Of a stretch of 64,000 nt of DNA, positions 4,541 to 12,978 are shown one piece after another. This stretch comes from Natronomonas salinimetallica (GTDB lineage: Archaea > Halobacteriota > Halobacteria > Halobacteriales > Haloarculaceae). The stretch lies in NCBI RefSeq assembly GCF_013839515.1, contig NZ_JACDNQ010000009.1, positions 1 to 64,000 of the forward strand, given 5' to 3'. A model generated the notes under the pieces. That model saw only the letters and a program-made list of their open reading frames with translations. It ran no database searches and was not told where the DNA came from. The translations under genes and the position numbers were made by a program. Positions within the stretch are counted from its first letter, which is position 1. Each line of letters starts with the position of its first letter.

Positions 4541-4607
4541 CTGAATTGAGGCGCTAAGGCCCCTTCCTCAACGAACGAGCGAAGCGAGTGAGTAGGGAGG
4601 GGATACA

Positions 4608-4663
4608 GCGTTCACAAGAGCGAAGCTCTTGTGTGCGGACGAGACGCCGCGTCTCGTCAACGC
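4608..4663. repeat. Nested double hairpin in the element's left end
   Basis: An outer stem GCGTT/AACGC (4608-4612 with 4659-4663) encloses two hairpins: ACAAGAG/CTCTTGT (4614-4620 with 4626-4632) and GACGAGAC/GTCTCGTC (4638-4645 with 4651-4658). This makes a three-way junction in single-stranded DNA or RNA. Similar structures occur alone at 21066-21140 and 45532-45623. Confidence 0.6.
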
Positions 4664-4752
4664 CGCACGGTTCTCAAACGCGTTCGACGCTCGGCCCACA
4701 GGCCCACGCAATCGAAACAACTATGCGCATAAATACGCATAGTGCGTATGTA

Positions 4753-4872
4753 GTGAGGCGGAAGAACATCACCATCCGCGAAGACCAAGCCGAGTGGGTC
4801 GAGGATAACCATCTTAACCTCTCGTCGTTCGTTCGCGGACAACTTGACGAACTCATCGAAGAACGCTCGTGA
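4753..4872 (+). CDS. Small ribbon-helix-helix protein upstream of tnpB
   Basis: 39 residues from the GTG at 4753: MRRKNITIREDQAEWVEDNH, then LNLSSFVRGQLDELIEERS, a beta strand plus two helices typical of ribbon-helix-helix repressors. An in-frame ATG at 4723 would give 49 residues but lies in a palindromic AT-rich promoter stretch (CTATGCGCATAAATACGCAT). The stop codon overlaps the GTG start of tnpB (GTGA), so the two are translationally coupled. I infer a regulator of tnpB expression; haloarchaeal tnpB genes are often preceded by such a protein. Confidence 0.7.
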   Translation: MRRKNITIREDQAEWVEDNHLNLSSFVRGQLDELIEERS

Positions 4873-6161
4873 ACTACAACTACAGGTATCGACTCCGACC
4901 GTCCGACGCTCTCGAAGAACAGTTAGCGTGGACTGTCGATACCTGTAGACAGGTCTACAACCACTTTCTCCACCGACTCAACCGCACCGACGACACCTCG
5001 GCATACTCCGAGCAGAAGCTCCTGCCGAGTCTCAAGAAGTGGTGGAGCGACCTGGAAGGCGTTCACTCGAAGGTACTACAGAAGGTCGTGCAACGGCTGT
5101 ACGACAACCTCTCGACACTACGAGAGCGCAAAGAGAACGGCTACCGCGTCGGGACGCTCAAGTGGAAGGCACCGGGCGAGTACCGCAGTTTCACCTACAG
5201 TCAATCCGGCTTCAAGCTCAAGAACACGGGCGGTCGGACGCGACTGTGGCTCTCAAAACTCGGAGAAATCCCGCTCACCTTCCACCGCGACCTCCCCGAC
5301 GACGCCGACATTAAGACCGTCACGGTCAAGCAAGAACCTACCGGGAAGTGGTACGCCATTCTCGGCATCGAGACGCCCGACGACCCGCCGGAGAAGCCGG
5401 AGAATCCCGAGAACTGCGTCGGTATCGACGTGGGGATTCTCAAGTACGCCCACGATACCGACGGAACCGCCGTCGAATCCCTCGACCTGTCCGACGAACG
5501 CGAACGTTTGGAACGCGCACAGCGCGACCTCTCGCGGAAACAGCACGGGTCGGACAATTGGGAGAAACAGCGTCGGGTCGTGGCAGAACGCCACGCCGAG
5601 TTGAAGAACAAGCGCCGCGACTTCCTTCACAAGCTCTCGAACTACTACGCTCGGGAGTACGACTTCGTGGCCGTCGAGGACTTGGACGCGAAGGGGTTGG
5701 TCGAACTACCGGGCAACTCGCGGAACCGGGCAGGTGCGGCGTGGGGGACGTTCCTGCGGATGCTCAAATACAAGTGCGAACGCGAAGGAACGCACTTCGT
5801 TGCTGTGAATCCGCGCGGAACGACGAAAGAGTGTGCGTCCTGCGGCGTTTCGACCGAGAAACCGTTGTGGGTGCGCGAACACTCCTGCCCGGCGTGTGGG
5901 TTCGAGGCGGACAGAGACGCGAACGCAGCGTGGAATATTCTTTCTCGCGGTGTGAAGAAGCAGTTAGGAGCGGGACGCTCCGAATCAACGTCCCCAGAAA
6001 TCTTCGATTTCTGGTGTGCGAACGAATCGCAGGGCGATTCGTTAACGCCTGTGGAGACTGCGTTCCCTGTGTCCTTGGTTGTGGATGCAAAGCGCGTCGT
6101 GGAAACAGGAAGCCCCACCCTCAAGCGCGAGGGCGTCAGCCCGAGCGGTAGGGTGGGGTAG
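4869..6161 (+). CDS. tnpB: RNA-guided nuclease TnpB
   Basis: 430 residues. TnpB proteins are RNA-guided DNA nucleases that help their element persist. The split RuvC site is complete: D187 (VGIDVGI), E270 (FVAVEDL) and D350 (EADRDANAAWN). A zinc ribbon lies between the last two (C322, C325, C340, C343). The N-terminal helices and wedge region (1-180) are intact, so the enzyme is probably active. The reading frame runs on for about 75 residues beyond the last catalytic residue, through the 3' hairpin to the element end; that tail probably reflects overlap with the guide RNA rather than folded protein. Start is the GTG at 4869, overlapping the stop of the small RHH gene. Confidence 0.92.
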   Translation: MNYNYRYRLRPSDALEEQLAWTVDTCRQVYNHFLHRLNRTDDTSAYSEQKLLPSLKKWWSDLEGVHSKVLQKVVQRLYDNLSTLRERKENGYRVGTLKWKAPGEYRSFTYSQSGFKLKNTGGRTRLWLSKLGEIPLTFHRDLPDDADIKTVTVKQEPTGKWYAILGIETPDDPPEKPENPENCVGIDVGILKYAHDTDGTAVESLDLSDERERLERAQRDLSRKQHGSDNWEKQRRVVAERHAELKNKRRDFLHKLSNYYAREYDFVAVEDLDAKGLVELPGNSRNRAGAAWGTFLRMLKYKCEREGTHFVAVNPRGTTKECASCGVSTEKPLWVREHSCPACGFEADRDANAAWNILSRGVKKQLGAGRSESTSPEIFDFWCANESQGDSLTPVETAFPVSLVVDAKRVVETGSPTLKREGVSPSGRVG

Positions 6162-6182: not shown

Positions 6183-7574
6183 TCAGGACGGCGTGAGTAG
6201 GTCGTCGATGTCCGCTACGCTGAACAGGGACCACGAGTCGTCGAGTTGTGCTTCGAGTCCGTCGACGAACCCGTTTTTCGAGAACAGGGCGAACTGCTCG
6301 TCTCGATCCGACGGTCCCCATCGGACGTTCTCCGCCTTTGCTCGCAGACTCTCGACGAGGTCTTCCCCAACCGAATCCGTCGTCCACTTACATTCGGCGA
6401 GGAGGACTCGGTCGTCGTTCGGTGCCAGCCCGACGATATCGATTTCCGCTTCTCCGTACCACCAGCGACCGACTTCGGAGTACGGTTCGAATGCACCGCG
6501 TCGAATTCCTTCCCAGACGGCTTCTTGACACATGTCCTCGAATGTGGTTGCGACGTGCGTTGGGAGGTCCGGTTGGATCGTCCCGTCGTACACGATCTTC
6601 GGTGCTTCCTCGATACTGGATCGATGCGGCTCGACATACCGAAACCAGAACCGAAGGAACTCGTCCGCAACCCGGTACCGTGACCGCTTCGATTTCTTCC
6701 CCGAGGCCGTGACTGGGACATCCCGTTCGATGAGGCGGAGTCGGCGAAGTGTCTGTAGGTACTTCGAGAGCGGTCCCGGATCGATCCCTGTTGCGCCGGA
6801 GATCTCGTTCGGTGTCGTATGGCCCAATGCGACTGCTTCGAGGATGCTCATATACCGGGCTGGGTTTCGGAGCTCGGTGCGCAGGAGAAACTCGGGTTCG
6901 TTATACAGTACCGCAGATGGTGACAGGACGTGTGATCGAATGTTCGCCGCGAGCGACTGGTCGTAGTCGAACAGCGTGAGGTACATCGGGGTACCACCCG
7001 TGACGGCATACGAGCGAACCGCGTCCCTGAAGTCGTACGAGATGACCTCTCGGGCCTGTTGAAACGAGAACGGCGTTACGTCGAGTTGGGCCGTTTGTCG
7101 CCCGTACAGTGGGCTTTCGTGCCCCAGGATCTCTGACTCCATCGTGCTCACGCTCGACCCACAGAGCACCAGCATCGAGTCCGTTCCATCGAGCGCCTGG
7201 TCGACGAATGCTTGCAGGTACGATGGAAGCGAGTCGTTCTCGTCGACGAGGTGCGGGAACTCGTCGATGACGACGACAAGGTCCTCCCGCTGGAGGCTCT
7301 CGCCGAGGTATTCGAACGCTTCGTCCCACCTGTCGATTCGAGGGACGCGCTCGTCGAAGTAGTCCGCAACTTGCTCGAGGAACTTCTCGCGCTGTCGATG
7401 CTCGGCTTCCTGCGCGGCAAGGAAGTACATGTGGGGACGGTCAGCACAGAATGCTTTGAGGAGTTCCGTTTTCCCGACCCGACGCCGGCCATAGACGACA
7501 ACGAAGTCCGAACCGGGGGACTCCACCGCACCCGTGAGTGTATCGAGTTCTTCCTCCCGGTCGTAGAAGGTCAT
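6183..7574 (-). CDS. Archaeal AAA+ ATPase with DUF234-type nuclease-like tail
   Basis: 463 residues. The N-terminal ATPase has Walker A GRRRVGKTE (residues 29-37) and Walker B LVVVIDEFP (near 100). A winged-helix segment follows (about 245-295: HTTPNEISGATGIDPGPLSK). The C-terminal 110 residues form a DUF234-type domain with a PD-(D/E)xK-like signature: AEIDIVGL, then LLAECKW. Such proteins are common in archaea, in clusters of mobile or defence genes; the biochemical role is unknown. Start is the ATG at 7574. The insertion cassette that begins at 7713 lies upstream of its promoter region. Confidence 0.85.
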   Translation of the reverse strand: MTFYDREEELDTLTGAVESPGSDFVVVYGRRRVGKTELLKAFCADRPHMYFLAAQEAEHRQREKFLEQVADYFDERVPRIDRWDEAFEYLGESLQREDLVVVIDEFPHLVDENDSLPSYLQAFVDQALDGTDSMLVLCGSSVSTMESEILGHESPLYGRQTAQLDVTPFSFQQAREVISYDFRDAVRSYAVTGGTPMYLTLFDYDQSLAANIRSHVLSPSAVLYNEPEFLLRTELRNPARYMSILEAVALGHTTPNEISGATGIDPGPLSKYLQTLRRLRLIERDVPVTASGKKSKRSRYRVADEFLRFWFRYVEPHRSSIEEAPKIVYDGTIQPDLPTHVATTFEDMCQEAVWEGIRRGAFEPYSEVGRWWYGEAEIDIVGLAPNDDRVLLAECKWTTDSVGEDLVESLRAKAENVRWGPSDRDEQFALFSKNGFVDGLEAQLDDSWSLFSVADIDDLLTPS

Positions 7575-7704: not shown

Positions 7705-7712
7705 GGGAAACT
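7705..7712. repeat. Left target-site duplication, GGGAAACT
   Basis: The 8 bases directly before the left inverted repeat are repeated exactly at 9496-9503, directly after the right inverted repeat. Confidence 0.85.
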
Positions 7713-7727
7713 GGCTCTGCTGAAACC

Positions 7728-8060
7728 CTTTCTTCAGACATAATACAGGATGAAACAGCCAGTCGCTGAAAACTACGTATTGACTATCATGGAATCTGCC
7801 AGTTTGCGTAGATCTTCAGAAAGTCGTGCTGAATGCAGCACGCGTATCGGTCACCGGATGATTGGCATTCCGCGAGTACTTGGATTGGTAGAGACTGATC
7901 CAGCAGAGATCGGTTAGCCCAAGGCTACTGACCGTTACAAAACCGGCACAGACCCGTAACGACAAACTGGTGCTCGACCGATCCTGTGGCCGACTTGCTG
8001 GATCTGCTGGTAAAGATATGAGGAGCAATATATTATTAACAAGCGACCTAAAGGACGGTA
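7728..8060. other. Non-coding left arm of the cassette
   Basis: 333 bases without a credible gene. There is a hairpin CGTGCTG-AATG-CAGCACG near 7827-7844, which could end transcription or translation. An AT-rich promoter stretch stands before the glycosyltransferase. I see no decayed transposase. Confidence 0.5.
8026..8037 (+). promoter_or_regulatory. TATA element of the glycosyltransferase gene
   Basis: CAATATATTATT is centred about 30 bases before the ATG at 8061, the position expected for a leaderless or short-leader haloarchaeal transcript. It means the cassette carries its own promoter. Confidence 0.55.
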
Positions 8061-9272
8061 ATGGACTATCAGCTGGCGAATTTGCTTTTCACACTGTTCG
8101 CTTGGACAGTGCTGACGATCTTCTTTGTTGCTACGGTTTTCTGGCTCATTGAGATTGTGATTATTGGCCGTGCTCGCCGTGGGGAGATAGAGCACGAACC
8201 GGCAGAGGTTGAGGTTCGAGTGATGACCGTAGCGGCTGAACGTGTCGTCCAAGCCACCGTCGACCAACTACCCACAGAGTTGGACACTATTCGGGTCATT
8301 GCCGAACGACCGATTACCATCGATGGTGCAGAGGTGTGTGTCGTCCCTTCCGAGTTCGAGTGTGAGGCCACACGGAAGGGTCGGGCGCTGGAGTGGGCTA
8401 GACGAGAGTTGAACTGCAATGCATCGTATATCCTGTATTTAGACGAGGATACGCTCTTGCGAGAATTCTATGGGCTGCCAGATGCCGACATTGTCCAACT
8501 TTCCGAACAGCCGATCCGGAGCGACTCGTGGCTCACGTACTTTGCGGAGATATTCAGGATGGGTTTCCAGTTGGAACAAGCCGTGTTCCCGAAGTTTCGT
8601 TATCCATTGTATGCATGGGGAGGGGGAATCGCTGTCAGGAAGGAACTTGAAGATCAGATTACTTGGGACGTGAACACCGTCACTGAAGACACGAACTTCG
8701 TCTGGCGGGCCTTCCAAGCTGGTGAGTGTGACTTGCAGTTTCTCAACATCCGCGCTATGAACCAAGCCCCGCCATCAGTTCGAGAGATGATCTACCAGCG
8801 TCGTCGTTGGATCTCCGGGGCGGCCCGTGATTCCCATCTCTTGCCCCGGCGGTATCAACTGTTGTCGTTAATGCGTAATGCCGCCTGGGGACTGGTTTTC
8901 GTGTCACCACTGCTCGCGCTGCCGCTGGTGACGCCGGTGACTGTCGTGCTGTTCCCTGTCGTCTACGGCTATGGCATTCTGTTTCAGTTAGTGGGACTGT
9001 TCGGATGGGCTATCCTCGGATACTGGTACTATGGCGAACGCCCATCCGTTTTAGTGGCCCTGCTCGTGACTATCCCACTGGTAGCAATCATCCACGCAGC
9101 AGGTGCATTTTGGGCGATCTTTCAACCGACGACTGAGTTCCGTGTTACCCAAAAGGTGCCACCTGCCGAAGTTGAGGATAGTAGGACTGCCGAGATCGCC
9201 GTCACTGAGAAGCATACCGATTCCGAACAGACTACTGAGGAAACCGAGCCCGTCGAACCCCGTCAGCCATAG
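8061..9272 (+). CDS. Membrane glycosyltransferase, GT2 family
   Basis: 403 residues. An N-terminal transmembrane helix (about 9-36) is followed by a cytoplasmic GT2 domain with DxD D128-E-D130 (LYLDEDTL), the acid pair E209-D210 (TVTEDTNF) and QRRRW at 246-250, the (Q/R)xxRW motif of processive beta-glycosyltransferases. Three or four membrane helices follow (270-365), then an acidic tail rich in E and T. The layout resembles egghead/BRE-3-like and hyaluronan/cellulose-synthase-like enzymes, so it probably adds or polymerises a sugar on a membrane acceptor. Donor and acceptor are not readable. It is the sole cargo of the cassette and may alter cell-surface glycans. Confidence 0.85.
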   Translation: MDYQLANLLFTLFAWTVLTIFFVATVFWLIEIVIIGRARRGEIEHEPAEVEVRVMTVAAERVVQATVDQLPTELDTIRVIAERPITIDGAEVCVVPSEFECEATRKGRALEWARRELNCNASYILYLDEDTLLREFYGLPDADIVQLSEQPIRSDSWLTYFAEIFRMGFQLEQAVFPKFRYPLYAWGGGIAVRKELEDQITWDVNTVTEDTNFVWRAFQAGECDLQFLNIRAMNQAPPSVREMIYQRRRWISGAARDSHLLPRRYQLLSLMRNAAWGLVFVSPLLALPLVTPVTVVLFPVVYGYGILFQLVGLFGWAILGYWYYGERPSVLVALLVTIPLVAIIHAAGAFWAIFQPTTEFRVTQKVPPAEVEDSRTAEIAVTEKHTDSEQTTEETEPVEPRQP

Positions 9273-9495
9273 TACCCATCCTACTGTAGATGGCCAATAC
9301 GCACACTCACTGAGCGGTTGGTTCAGCCGAGGATTATTCAAAGAACGGTTCGTATCTGCTGACTGTAAGCTCTGTATCTCGCACCGCAGTCTTAACAGAT
9401 AATGAGTGATTCGACGATCTGATCGATACGTGAGCCCTCTGTACTGGCCGTAATCGAGGTGAAATATATCACCGGCAGAGAATTTCAACAGAGCC

Positions 9496-9503
9496 GGGAA
9501 ACT
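9496..9503. repeat. Right target-site duplication, GGGAAACT
   Basis: Exact copy of 7705-7712, directly adjoining the right inverted repeat of the cassette. The joined empty site would lie in the gap downstream of the helicase operon. Confidence 0.85.
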
Positions 9504-9525: not shown

Positions 9526-12500
9526 TCACTCCTCGAGCCCGGGACCGACGGTAACGGAGGCCGGCGCGCAGGGGAGTTGGTTGTGCTGACACCACCGGCA
9601 GTGCTCACCCGAAGTGTACCGACTGAACGAGAACGCAGCAATATCGTTCATCGACGACGTCACGTCATCTCTGACTGCTTCCAGATCACTATCGCTGAAT
9701 GTTCGGGATTCGACTTTTGGCCCAATGTTTCCAACATAGGCATATCCCGCGCGTGCGACAGGCTCATCGTACAGGTCACGGCACGCTAACAGGTAGATCG
9801 GGAGTTGCTTATCGTCCTCCAAGTCGCGGTGACGTTCGGTCGCCTTGTAGTCGATGACGACCAGTTCGTCGTCAGGCGTCCGGTAGACGGCGTCAATGTA
9901 GCCGACGAGTTCGTGCCCATCGATGTCGAGTTCGAACTCCCGTTCCGCATCGATGAGCTCGTAGCTGGGGAGGTCTAACTCGAAGTACCGGTCGATACAC
10001 TGTTTCGCCGCCGGGAGTGCGTCCTCGGCTCGGCGTTGACTGGCCAGGCGCTCACAGATTTCGTACCACTCCTCACGCCGTTCCACAGCTTGGTTCGCGG
10101 CTTGCTCTGCAGTGTCGTGGAACAGCAACCCGATCTCACGTTGCGAAACACCATCCCGGGCTTCATTCGTCGCGTCCTGATAGTCGGGGAATGCGTTGAC
10201 CACGTAGTCCAGGTAGTGGCTCCGCGGGCATTCCTCGTAGGCTGCCAGCGACGTGTAACTGTGCGAGAGCGGCGGCGAGGGCGTCGACGGGCCGGTTAGC
10301 GACGTCACTTGGAGTGTCTCTCGTTCGGCTCTCGGTGAGAGATCCCCGTCGAGGGTGGCTGTTGCGAGGTCTAGCACGCGGTCGCGCGCAGCTTCGACTG
10401 CGAGTTCGTCGCCGTCGTGCTGGACGGTCCCACCAACGCGCCCGACAGTCTCGTTCGCCAGCGTGTCAGTCCAATCTGCCGCATCATCCGGGAGACACTC
10501 CTGAACGTCGGTCCAGAGTGGGAGCTGCCCGCGCGCTGGCTGCCACGGGATTTGGGGTGGAAGAATCTCGTCGACGGCCTCTGAAACCGGGTGCACGTCC
10601 GTAGCATCGTCGTCGTCCTCGGTACCGCCCTGGAGGACAAGGACGTCTTCGGCGCGCGTGATTCCGACGTGGAACACGCGCCGGGTTTCACGCGCGTCAC
10701 GCTCGACGAAGTCCTCGGCGAACGCCGCCTCCGCGCCATCCGAGAGCCCCGTTTCGAGTGCGTCGTAGGTACGTGAGCTCGGTGCCCACTCGTCGGCTGT
10801 AACTTGTGGGGTGAGGACGACCGGGAAGTCCAGGCCTTTGCTCTTGTGGATGGTCATTACGTTGACCGCGTCGTCGGCGACGTCCGGCTGACTCGTCGGT
10901 GTCGAGCCGCTCTCGTCGAACAGGGAGTCGTAGTGTTCGAGCGAGTTGATGAACTCTGGGGTGAGCGGTGGTTGGACAGCACTGTCACCGTATTGTTCGA
11001 TGACGTCCTCCAGCTGGGCGAGATCCCGGCGCTCCTGTTCGCTGAGGTACCACTCGATGTTCGTGATGTCCGTGAGTTCGCGGTACAGGTGACTGAGCGA
11101 CGCCGAGTCACGGATGGCGAGGAGCTCTGTGACGTGTTCGTGGGCTTCTGCGACGCGGTCGGGTTCCTCGAACTCGTCGAGCGGCGTCTCGCGCAGCGTG
11201 TCCACGAGCGAGTCGTCGCCCGCGTTGAGCGTACGGAGATCCGCGTCGCAGAGCCGGTACCGCATCAGGAGGACGCGATTCCAACTCACCTCGTCTTCGG
11301 GCCGCGCGAGCGCCTTCAGGTAGGCAGTCACGGTGCCGACGCCGACTGATTCCGTCGCCAGATCACCAGCAACCTGGTACGGGATGCCGGCATCCTCGAA
11401 CTCCTCGATGACCGGCGTCGCGTGGTCGTTCTTCCGGACAAGCAGGGCGATGTCGCCCGGGTCGTACGCCTCGTCGAGGTTGTCTGCTGCGCCGCTCAGA
11501 AGATTCTGGACGACGGTGCGAAGCTGGGTCGCGCCGTCCGCATCGTCCTCGTCCGGCAGTTCGACGGTTGCGACGGTGTCGCCGTCGTACGCAGGTTCGT
11601 CGACGCGTTTCAGTGTCTTGTGTCGTTCGCGGTGATCGAGCTTCTGAATTGCTTCGTTCGCCAGGTTGAGGATCGGCTGTCGGGACCGGAAGTTCTCTTC
11701 TAACGGTTCATCTTCGAGTGCGGCGAATGCGCGGTCGAGTTCGTCGGTGATGTTGGCGACGTTCGCGCCGCGCCATTCGTAGATCGCCTGATCGTCGTCG
11801 CCGACGACGAACAGATTATCGTCGGTGACGAGGGACGTGACGAGATCGAACTGCAGCCGGTCGGTGTCCTGGAACTCGTCACAGAACACGTAGTCCCACC
11901 GCTCGGCGATCTCCTCGCCGACCGACGAGTCCATCAGCGCAGCCGTCTCGACCACCAGGCCGTCGAAGTCGATGAGATTTCGCTCGTCCAGTTCTCGCTC
12001 GTACGCAGCGTACCCGGCGGTGAGATCTCGGGCAGCAAGACAGTCGGACACGAACGAGTCGAGGTGGTCCGTGAGTTCGAGGCCAAGATCGTCCGGGATT
12101 CCTTTCGGCGCACCGCTTGCGTACCCGCCGAACAGGTACTTCGGGAGTTTGTACACGTTGTCTGGCAGGTCACGCTCGCCAGCCTCGTGGGCCTCGAACG
12201 CGGTTTCAAGCGCGTCACACAGGTCGACGAGCCGGTCGAGGAAATCACGGGTGCTGGCCTCGATCCCGTCCGTTCCCAACCCGTCGCGTTCCGCGGCGAG
12301 TTCATCGCGCACCTCGGGAAGTGAGTCCAGCACGCTTGCCACGGACCGGCCACCGAGATGGTCGCTGGCGATTGCTTCGATGCGCTCCGGCAGGTCGGCG
12401 AGGTCATAGACGCGGTCGGCGGGCCCGAGGAACGCGTCGATGTCGTCCGGCGAGATGCCGCTGCGCTTCATCGACCCGATGAAGTTGAGCAGCTTCGACG

Positions 12501-12978
12501 CGGCTCCGGACGCGTACCCGTCGCTGCCGTACACGTTCGGTTTGACCGACCGGTACTCGATGTCGTCAAGAACGTCCAGTACGATAGCGTACTTCTCGGC
12601 GTCCGTGGCAACCTCGAAGTCCGGGTCGATCCCGGCTTCGTAGGCGTAGTCGGTGAGGATCTCGTTACAGATCGAGTGGTACGTGTACGCGTCGATGTCG
12701 TACCCTGCTGTCCCGAGTTTCGCGTTGAGTTTCTCCCGCATCGAGTCCGCCGCGTTGTTCGTGAACGTCAACGCGAGAATCCGGTCCGGCGAGACGTCTT
12801 CCTCGTCGATGAGATGCTCAATCTTCCGCACCATCGTGAACGTCTTTCCCGTCCCTGCACCGGCGAGGACACGCATCGGGTACGCGTCGGAGTTGATGAT
12901 TGTCCGCTGTTGAGGCTCTGGGGACACGTCTTCTTCCGGCACCGGGAACCACGACGGGTACTCGGACTCGTCGCTCAT
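9526..12978 (-). CDS. UvrD/AddA-type helicase-nuclease
   Basis: 1,150 residues. The SF1A helicase has Walker A GAGTGKT at 40-46, motif II DEFQDTD near 370 and GDDDQAIYEWRG soon after; the C-terminal helicase half contains NVMTIHKSKGLDFPVVL. The last 270 residues are a RecB/Cas4-like PD-(D/E)xK nuclease (GYIDAV, then LVVIDYK and a Q a few residues on) with the Cys set of a 4Fe-4S cluster: one Cys in YEECPRSHY and three in GEHCRWCQHNQLPC. It thus looks like a complete AddA/AddB-style motor plus nuclease. It is the last gene of a four-gene operon; its ATG overlaps the stop of the preceding nuclease gene by four bases. Confidence 0.9.
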   Translation of the reverse strand: MSDESEYPSWFPVPEEDVSPEPQQRTIINSDAYPMRVLAGAGTGKTFTMVRKIEHLIDEEDVSPDRILALTFTNNAADSMREKLNAKLGTAGYDIDAYTYHSICNEILTDYAYEAGIDPDFEVATDAEKYAIVLDVLDDIEYRSVKPNVYGSDGYASGAASKLLNFIGSMKRSGISPDDIDAFLGPADRVYDLADLPERIEAIASDHLGGRSVASVLDSLPEVRDELAAERDGLGTDGIEASTRDFLDRLVDLCDALETAFEAHEAGERDLPDNVYKLPKYLFGGYASGAPKGIPDDLGLELTDHLDSFVSDCLAARDLTAGYAAYERELDERNLIDFDGLVVETAALMDSSVGEEIAERWDYVFCDEFQDTDRLQFDLVTSLVTDDNLFVVGDDDQAIYEWRGANVANITDELDRAFAALEDEPLEENFRSRQPILNLANEAIQKLDHRERHKTLKRVDEPAYDGDTVATVELPDEDDADGATQLRTVVQNLLSGAADNLDEAYDPGDIALLVRKNDHATPVIEEFEDAGIPYQVAGDLATESVGVGTVTAYLKALARPEDEVSWNRVLLMRYRLCDADLRTLNAGDDSLVDTLRETPLDEFEEPDRVAEAHEHVTELLAIRDSASLSHLYRELTDITNIEWYLSEQERRDLAQLEDVIEQYGDSAVQPPLTPEFINSLEHYDSLFDESGSTPTSQPDVADDAVNVMTIHKSKGLDFPVVLTPQVTADEWAPSSRTYDALETGLSDGAEAAFAEDFVERDARETRRVFHVGITRAEDVLVLQGGTEDDDDATDVHPVSEAVDEILPPQIPWQPARGQLPLWTDVQECLPDDAADWTDTLANETVGRVGGTVQHDGDELAVEAARDRVLDLATATLDGDLSPRAERETLQVTSLTGPSTPSPPLSHSYTSLAAYEECPRSHYLDYVVNAFPDYQDATNEARDGVSQREIGLLFHDTAEQAANQAVERREEWYEICERLASQRRAEDALPAAKQCIDRYFELDLPSYELIDAEREFELDIDGHELVGYIDAVYRTPDDELVVIDYKATERHRDLEDDKQLPIYLLACRDLYDEPVARAGYAYVGNIGPKVESRTFSDSDLEAVRDDVTSSMNDIAAFSFSRYTSGEHCRWCQHNQLPCAPASVTVGPGLEE

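Follow-up and report, generated by a model that had tools for sequence, protein, structure and literature searches.

A probable mobile insertion cassette with a membrane glycosyltransferase passenger in Natronomonas salinimetallica, and related cassettes in haloarchaea

Mobile insertion cassettes (MICs) have been described in bacteria, mainly for resistance genes. According to PMC3913671, bacterial MICs have inverted repeats, no transposase, and a target duplication, and MIC231 is mobilized in trans. Among haloarchaea, transposase-free MITEs and the ORF-bearing ISH2 have been described (PMC3119063), and Hlac_3088 of Halorubrum lacusprofundi, a predicted cell-surface protein carried as the passenger of a transposon, has been proposed to interfere with virus attachment (PMC10544981). 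We found no archaeal MIC in the open-access literature, which is no proof that none is published.

We analyzed a 64,000-nt stretch of the N. salinimetallica genome (contig NZ_JACDNQ010000009.1, positions 1 to 64,000; hereafter the window). The element at 7713-9495 is 1783 bp long and is bordered by an exact 8-bp duplication, GGGAAACT (Table 1). Its 15-bp inverted ends are imperfect, reading GGCTCTGCTGAAACC from 7713 and GGCTCTGTTGAAATT inward from 9495; they agree at 12/15 positions, and at 12/13 over the first 13, in the form GGCTCTG(C/T)TGAAA. We scanned the whole window for exact 8-bp direct repeats abutting inverted 13-mers (at most one mismatch, 0.3-3 kb apart), and the only match was the cassette site; the same scan of 40 first-order Markov sequences of window length returned zero such structures. 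The G+C content is 52.6% in the element, 58.8% and 62.8% in the 3-kb flanks, and 63.9% in the window. ORF and Pfam searches of 7713-9495 found no transposase or transposase fragment, and the sole substantial gene encodes a glycosyltransferase (GT). Only one copy is present in its own genome, and no further copy is known. The sequence-only reading had described the inverted ends, the flanking duplication, the lower G+C content and a GT2 gene as sole content, all of which we could read again from the DNA and the Pfam matches; the TATA box that it assigned to the gene corresponds to a TATA-like candidate, AATATATTATTAAC. Separately, a 75-bp stretch close to the right end (window 9369-9443) recurs alone, at 77-83% identity, in three plasmid records of haloarchaea; two of these (L214 and L216) were inspected, and in neither is it near cassette-type ends.

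Table 1. Features of the cassette and its flanks in the window, and related elements elsewhere
Feature	Location	Strand	Basis or remark
ATPase_2/DUF234 protein, flanking gene outside the cassette	window 6183..7574	-	adjoins the uninterrupted site in congeners
Target-site duplication, left copy, GGGAAACT	window 7705..7712	.	sequence; single target copy in congener G003
Left end, type A	window 7713..7780	+	profile from other elements, E 2.9e-14
Left terminal inverted repeat	window 7713-7727		within the type-A end
Candidate archaeal TATA box, AATATATTATTAAC	window 8027-8040	+	sequence and distance, ~20-35 bp before the ATG at 8061
GT2 membrane glycosyltransferase, 403 aa	window 8061..9272	+	PF13632, E 1.4e-14
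Right end, type B	window 9427..9495	-	profile from other elements, E 7.6e-13
Right terminal inverted repeat	window 9481-9495		within the type-B end
Target-site duplication, right copy, GGGAAACT	window 9496..9503	.	sequence
UvrD-like helicase/PD-(D/E)XK nuclease, flanking gene	window 9526..12978	-	insertion ~23 bp beyond its stop codon
Halorubrum GT cassette occurrences	L327 5578-7107; L354 4834-6362; L355 2971-4500
Sodium/bile-acid-type transporter	L124		transposase-less element, Pfam
GNAT acetyltransferase	L132		transposase-less element, Pfam
Antibiotic-biosynthesis-monooxygenase domain	L143		transposase-less element, Pfam
HNH endonuclease, 916-bp cassette, exact 8-bp duplication TGGTACTC	L210 9928-10843		viral-classed contig IMGVR_UViG_2554235474_000003
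Mrr restriction nuclease	L212		transposase-less element on Halorubrum plasmid, Pfam
Trypsin-like protease resembling candidate defence protein	L246		transposase-less element, Pfam
HVO_A0114/TumE toxin-antitoxin pair	L290		transposase-less element, Pfam
DUF6653	L296		transposase-less element, Pfam
AsnC-type regulator	L307		transposase-less element, Pfam
7TM histidine kinase	L320		transposase-less element, Pfam

The element occupies the gap between the UvrD-like helicase/nuclease gene and the ATPase_2/DUF234 gene, upstream of the latter, and breaks neither. In one congener (G003), the genes on its two sides are adjacent, and the alignment runs through the junction at 83% identity over 143 columns. 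At this empty site the target is present once, as GGTTTCCC (other strand), whereas the window has two copies of AGTTTCCC. As the congener joins both flanks around a single target copy, the cassette is an insertion; the sequence-only reading had taken it for a transposed unit and had pointed to an empty site as a check. Both flanking genes are likewise adjacent without the cassette in congener G018 (L188), where the intergenic sequence has diverged too far for the target to be read, and in congener G016 (L186) the downstream gene differs from that of the window. One gene from the cassette, at window 4588-6161, is a TnpB-like (OrfB_IS605) gene preceded by a short ORF.

A first search with the left end (7713-7800) and the right end (9350-9495) covered 146 genomes of the family, where both ends recur, often paired 300-700 bp apart. 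When the fetched places were tested for flanking 8-mers, many elements with exact duplications emerged. The search was then widened to 392 genomes of the order, and 80 more regions were fetched. In a control with the flanks shifted by 30-99 bp, 1/1365 passed at the looser one-mismatch setting. We distinguished 53 elements with exact duplications: 17 have a transposase homologue, 16 are MITE-like (no ORF of 95 aa), and 20 carry other ORFs as cargo and no transposase, one of these 20 (L264) being doubtful, with a poor left end and a TnpB-like gene. Mobile insertion cassettes of this end family are thus common in haloarchaea. These 20 elements represent the cassettes with matching ends but other cargo that the sequence-only reading had proposed to look for, and its description of such cassettes as rarely described in archaea holds in that they are little described but not in the sense of rarity, since the left-end sequence is present in 199/392 genomes of the order. 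Because the cargo is diverse (Table 1), with lipoprotein-like proteins in further transposase-less elements, the GT is one cargo among many. Look-alike ends on three contigs of the N. salinimetallica genome (C7, C13 and C23) had no second end with a duplication, and no type-B end was found in the viral-contig scan. An element of one congener (G005, L152 212-2978) is nested: an IS5-family element contains a lipoprotein cassette that has ends of the same family and no transposase, and the outer IS and the inner cassette each have an exact 8-bp duplication.

The transposase in elements with matching ends belongs to the IS5 family (NF033579, E 5e-64; PF01609) and is ~93% identical to proteins annotated ISHla2/ISHxa2. 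These parent-type elements measure 1.2-1.6 kb and have 8-bp duplications, the same length as in the window; minimal copies are 1238 bp, one of them on Halostagnicola larsenii plasmid NZ_CP007056.1. The inspected copies of ISHla2 and ISHxa2 have ends of the matching kind without an intact duplication. The IS5-family relatives of ISHla2/ISHxa2 therefore supply the parent IS, with a matching end and 8-bp duplications, that had been suggested as a check. The left end of the cassette, 76-85% identical to ends elsewhere, is by its sequence of type A, the transposase-distal end of this IS5-family parent; the end profiles were trained without the window, which is absent from all training sets. Full-length transposases of the ISHla2/ISHxa2 group occur in congener G005, in elements with duplications. 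The N. salinimetallica assembly, in which IS copies are collapsed at contig ends, contained no close parent transposase (best ~40% identical). A multicopy IS sharing the outer 12 bp (GGCTCTGTTGAAT...) breaks this assembly at six contig ends. These contigs (C3, C4, C10, C12, C13 and C28) end inside the multicopy IS, whose end is GGCTCTGTTGAATCACTAGACAGCGGCGGG; it is probably of the IS5 family and ~940 bp long, and 27 bases are identical between two of the flanks. An IS6-family parent, which was the first guess from the ends, was ruled out because matching elements encode IS5-family transposases; among 30 fetched IS6-type (PF13610) loci, such ends were present only at L067, where they belong to one small element. 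In Halorubrum alkaliphilum, the passengers of one IS5-family element (L074 2006-3613) are a DUF5615 (PIN-like) gene and a small ORF next to it, which may form a toxin-antitoxin pair.

The second ends fall into two kinds. A type-A end (TTCTTCAGACAT after the repeat) is present in 38/53 elements. The second end is of the 'IB' type (CAGAGAGTTACAT) where a close transposase is present (9/9) and of type B (CAGCAAGTGATAT) where there is no transposase (28/29), as in the window; the window right end matches the IB profile at only E 0.005, far poorer than type B. As second-end types split by the presence of the transposase, the cassettes did not arise from the IS by simple deletion, and they seem to form a distinct lineage that has a second end of its own. 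This bears on the possibility that the element arrived as a transporter IS with transposase and GT and lost the transposase after insertion, leaving a dead remnant. Copies with a transposase and a passenger do exist in the family (L157, PAS-domain; L234, phosphatase-like; and L244, the last two in G005), but no transposase trace lies between the ends, the right end is not the IB end of type-A elements with a close transposase, and the A+B pair is common to many independent transposase-less elements, indicating a replicating lineage. We therefore regard loss after arrival as unlikely. The unlike left and right ends could also be those of two different ISs bracketing the gene, a compound transposon reduced to its outer ends; this we consider very improbable, as 28 elements that have exact duplications and no transposase, ranging from a 178-bp MITE-like element to 2.5-kb cassettes, show this A+B pairing, which is thus a standing unit, not a local construction.

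The cargo enzyme has the DxD, TED and QxxRW motifs and the membrane helices of a processive-like membrane GT2, and D128-E129-D130, T208-E209-D210 and Q246-R247-R248-R249-W250 (QRRRW) are invariant in 15 aligned homologues. In its AlphaFold model (mean pLDDT 77), an N-terminal helix and long C-terminal helices flank a GT-A-like domain, and in fold comparisons the model came closest to bacterial cellulose synthase, hyaluronan synthase and the Pyrobaculum mannosyltransferase PcManGT; phmmer found no homologue in the PDB. A GH16 gene adjoins several GT homologues, and together with the fold matches of the model this makes a polysaccharide-synthase role likely. The nearest relatives (63-74% identical) are from Halorubrum, Halobaculum, Natronocalculus, Halobellus and a Natrialbaceae MAG. 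No close homologue was found in the congeners searched, and no homologue was found in phage records; a gene foreign to the genus is the best explanation that the sequence comparisons offer. The nearest GT by DNA (80%), L086 of Halobellus salinus, is truncated at a contig edge and is uninformative on the cassette. Members of the GT family occur widely on plasmids and chromosomes of haloarchaea, as would suit a gene moved by homologous recombination or within a larger island with coincidental repeats, but the empty site with its single target copy refutes this, and the exact boundaries at both ends, the 8-bp duplication and the empty result from the simulated windows leave it next to no credibility.

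A point beyond the sequence-only reading is that the GT family of the window is, judging from the ends around its homologues, also carried by other cassettes. A GT 41% identical to that of the window is bracketed by two decayed ends on plasmid NZ_CP030065.1 of Halorubrum sp. PV6 (L327). Each of these ends can be aligned with those of transporter cassette L124 for 55-70 bp, and no duplication is left. A PV6-type GT cassette occupies the same site in genome G402 (92.8% over 1966 bp), and another (90.8%) lies ~165 bp from this site in genome G440, where it is flanked by AAATATCT and AAACATCT, a 7/8 duplication; the G440 site is uninterrupted in G402. The two positions, one of them empty in G402, indicate that the Halorubrum GT cassette occupied two sites. 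Some GT cassettes elsewhere have lost the duplication. In genome G335 (L350 4563-7518), a type-A end (E ~1e-13) and a weak type-B end (E 0.0014) enclose a GT gene and a GH16 gene; no duplication was found around the pair, which is possibly a two-gene cassette. Over 61 GT loci excluding the window (181.5 kb of flank), we counted 15 ends within 1.5 kb of the GT gene, compared to 2 in 168.5 kb of controls, a count in which Halorubrum, rich in these elements, is over-represented and for which two GT loci had been widened because an end had been seen. At two loci the ends do not frame the GT: for the homologue at L074, a type-B end that faces the GT lies 559 bp upstream, with no second end found before the contig end, and at L076 the end upstream of the GT points away from it. 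That the transposase-less cassettes are a dedicated system common to haloarchaea and repeatedly shuttle this one GT2 surface-polysaccharide-synthase family (sometimes with GH16) between genomes, so that glycans and virus susceptibility vary, is a speculative reading that we think doubtful.

For the window itself, we conclude with high confidence, in agreement with the sequence-only reading, that the element is an MIC: a non-autonomous unit with a single GT2 passenger under its own putative promoter, for which an IS5-family transposase would be supplied from another copy. Its terminal inverted repeats are akin to IS ends, and it has a passenger that is not a transposase, a target-site duplication of the cognate-IS length, and an empty site. 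Whereas an IS5-family insertion sequence encodes a DDE transposase, 7713-9495 contains none, so the cassette is a dependent of the IS5 family and not itself an IS. We hypothesize that a transposase of the ISHla2/ISHxa2 group, expressed from another copy, would recognize both ends in trans, act on the unlike ends (type A on the left, type B on the right) and insert the 1783-bp unit whole, host repair then leaving the 8-bp duplication. The GT would be expressed from the internal TATA-like site. We infer mobilization in trans, to which the presence of the related GT cassette at two Halorubrum sites lends indirect support, the identity of the acting transposase and current mobility; the product of the enzyme, presumably a polysaccharide, may likewise affect surface glycans or virus receptors.

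As the census reveals, haloarchaea have a large family of IS5-linked cassettes, whose cargo includes enzymes, transporters, restriction nucleases, toxin-antitoxin pairs and regulators. Such a family provides a concrete way of transferring single genes among organisms that are known to exchange genes heavily, and it predicts that one transposase can move many unrelated genes. As a GT of this family has been captured more than once, a link between transposition and surface variation is testable; if the shuttling reading is true, cell-surface glycans and virus susceptibility would vary through cassette movement.

Compared to known systems, the cassette resembles MIC231 and related mic elements (the Bacillus cereus IS231 group; mic-qnrD, PMC3913671) in its inverted ends without a transposase, its target duplication and its passenger with its own promoter, and trans mobilization by the cognate IS, as for MIC231, is what we propose here. 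It differs from them in being archaeal, in having an IS5-family parent rather than IS231 and 8-bp duplications, in a second end that differs from the end of the parent IS, and in its glycosyltransferase cargo. With ISHla2/ISHxa2 (haloarchaeal IS5 family) it shares the outer inverted repeat GGCTCTGTTGAA, and with their close relatives the type-A subterminal region and the 8-bp duplications; unlike the cassette, however, these encode a transposase, and their transposase-proximal end is of another type than the cassette right end. The haloarchaeal MITEs and ISH2 (PMC3119063) are similarly transposase-free, with inverted ends matching known transposons, but are short and mostly non-coding, ISH2-type elements (PMC3119063) being ~520 bp with a small non-transposase ORF, whereas the cassette encodes a full 403-aa enzyme. 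Finally, Hlac_3088 (PMC10544981) is also a passenger gene of a haloarchaeal mobile element, but its transposon has a transposase, and its cargo is an S-layer-like protein rather than a glycosyltransferase.
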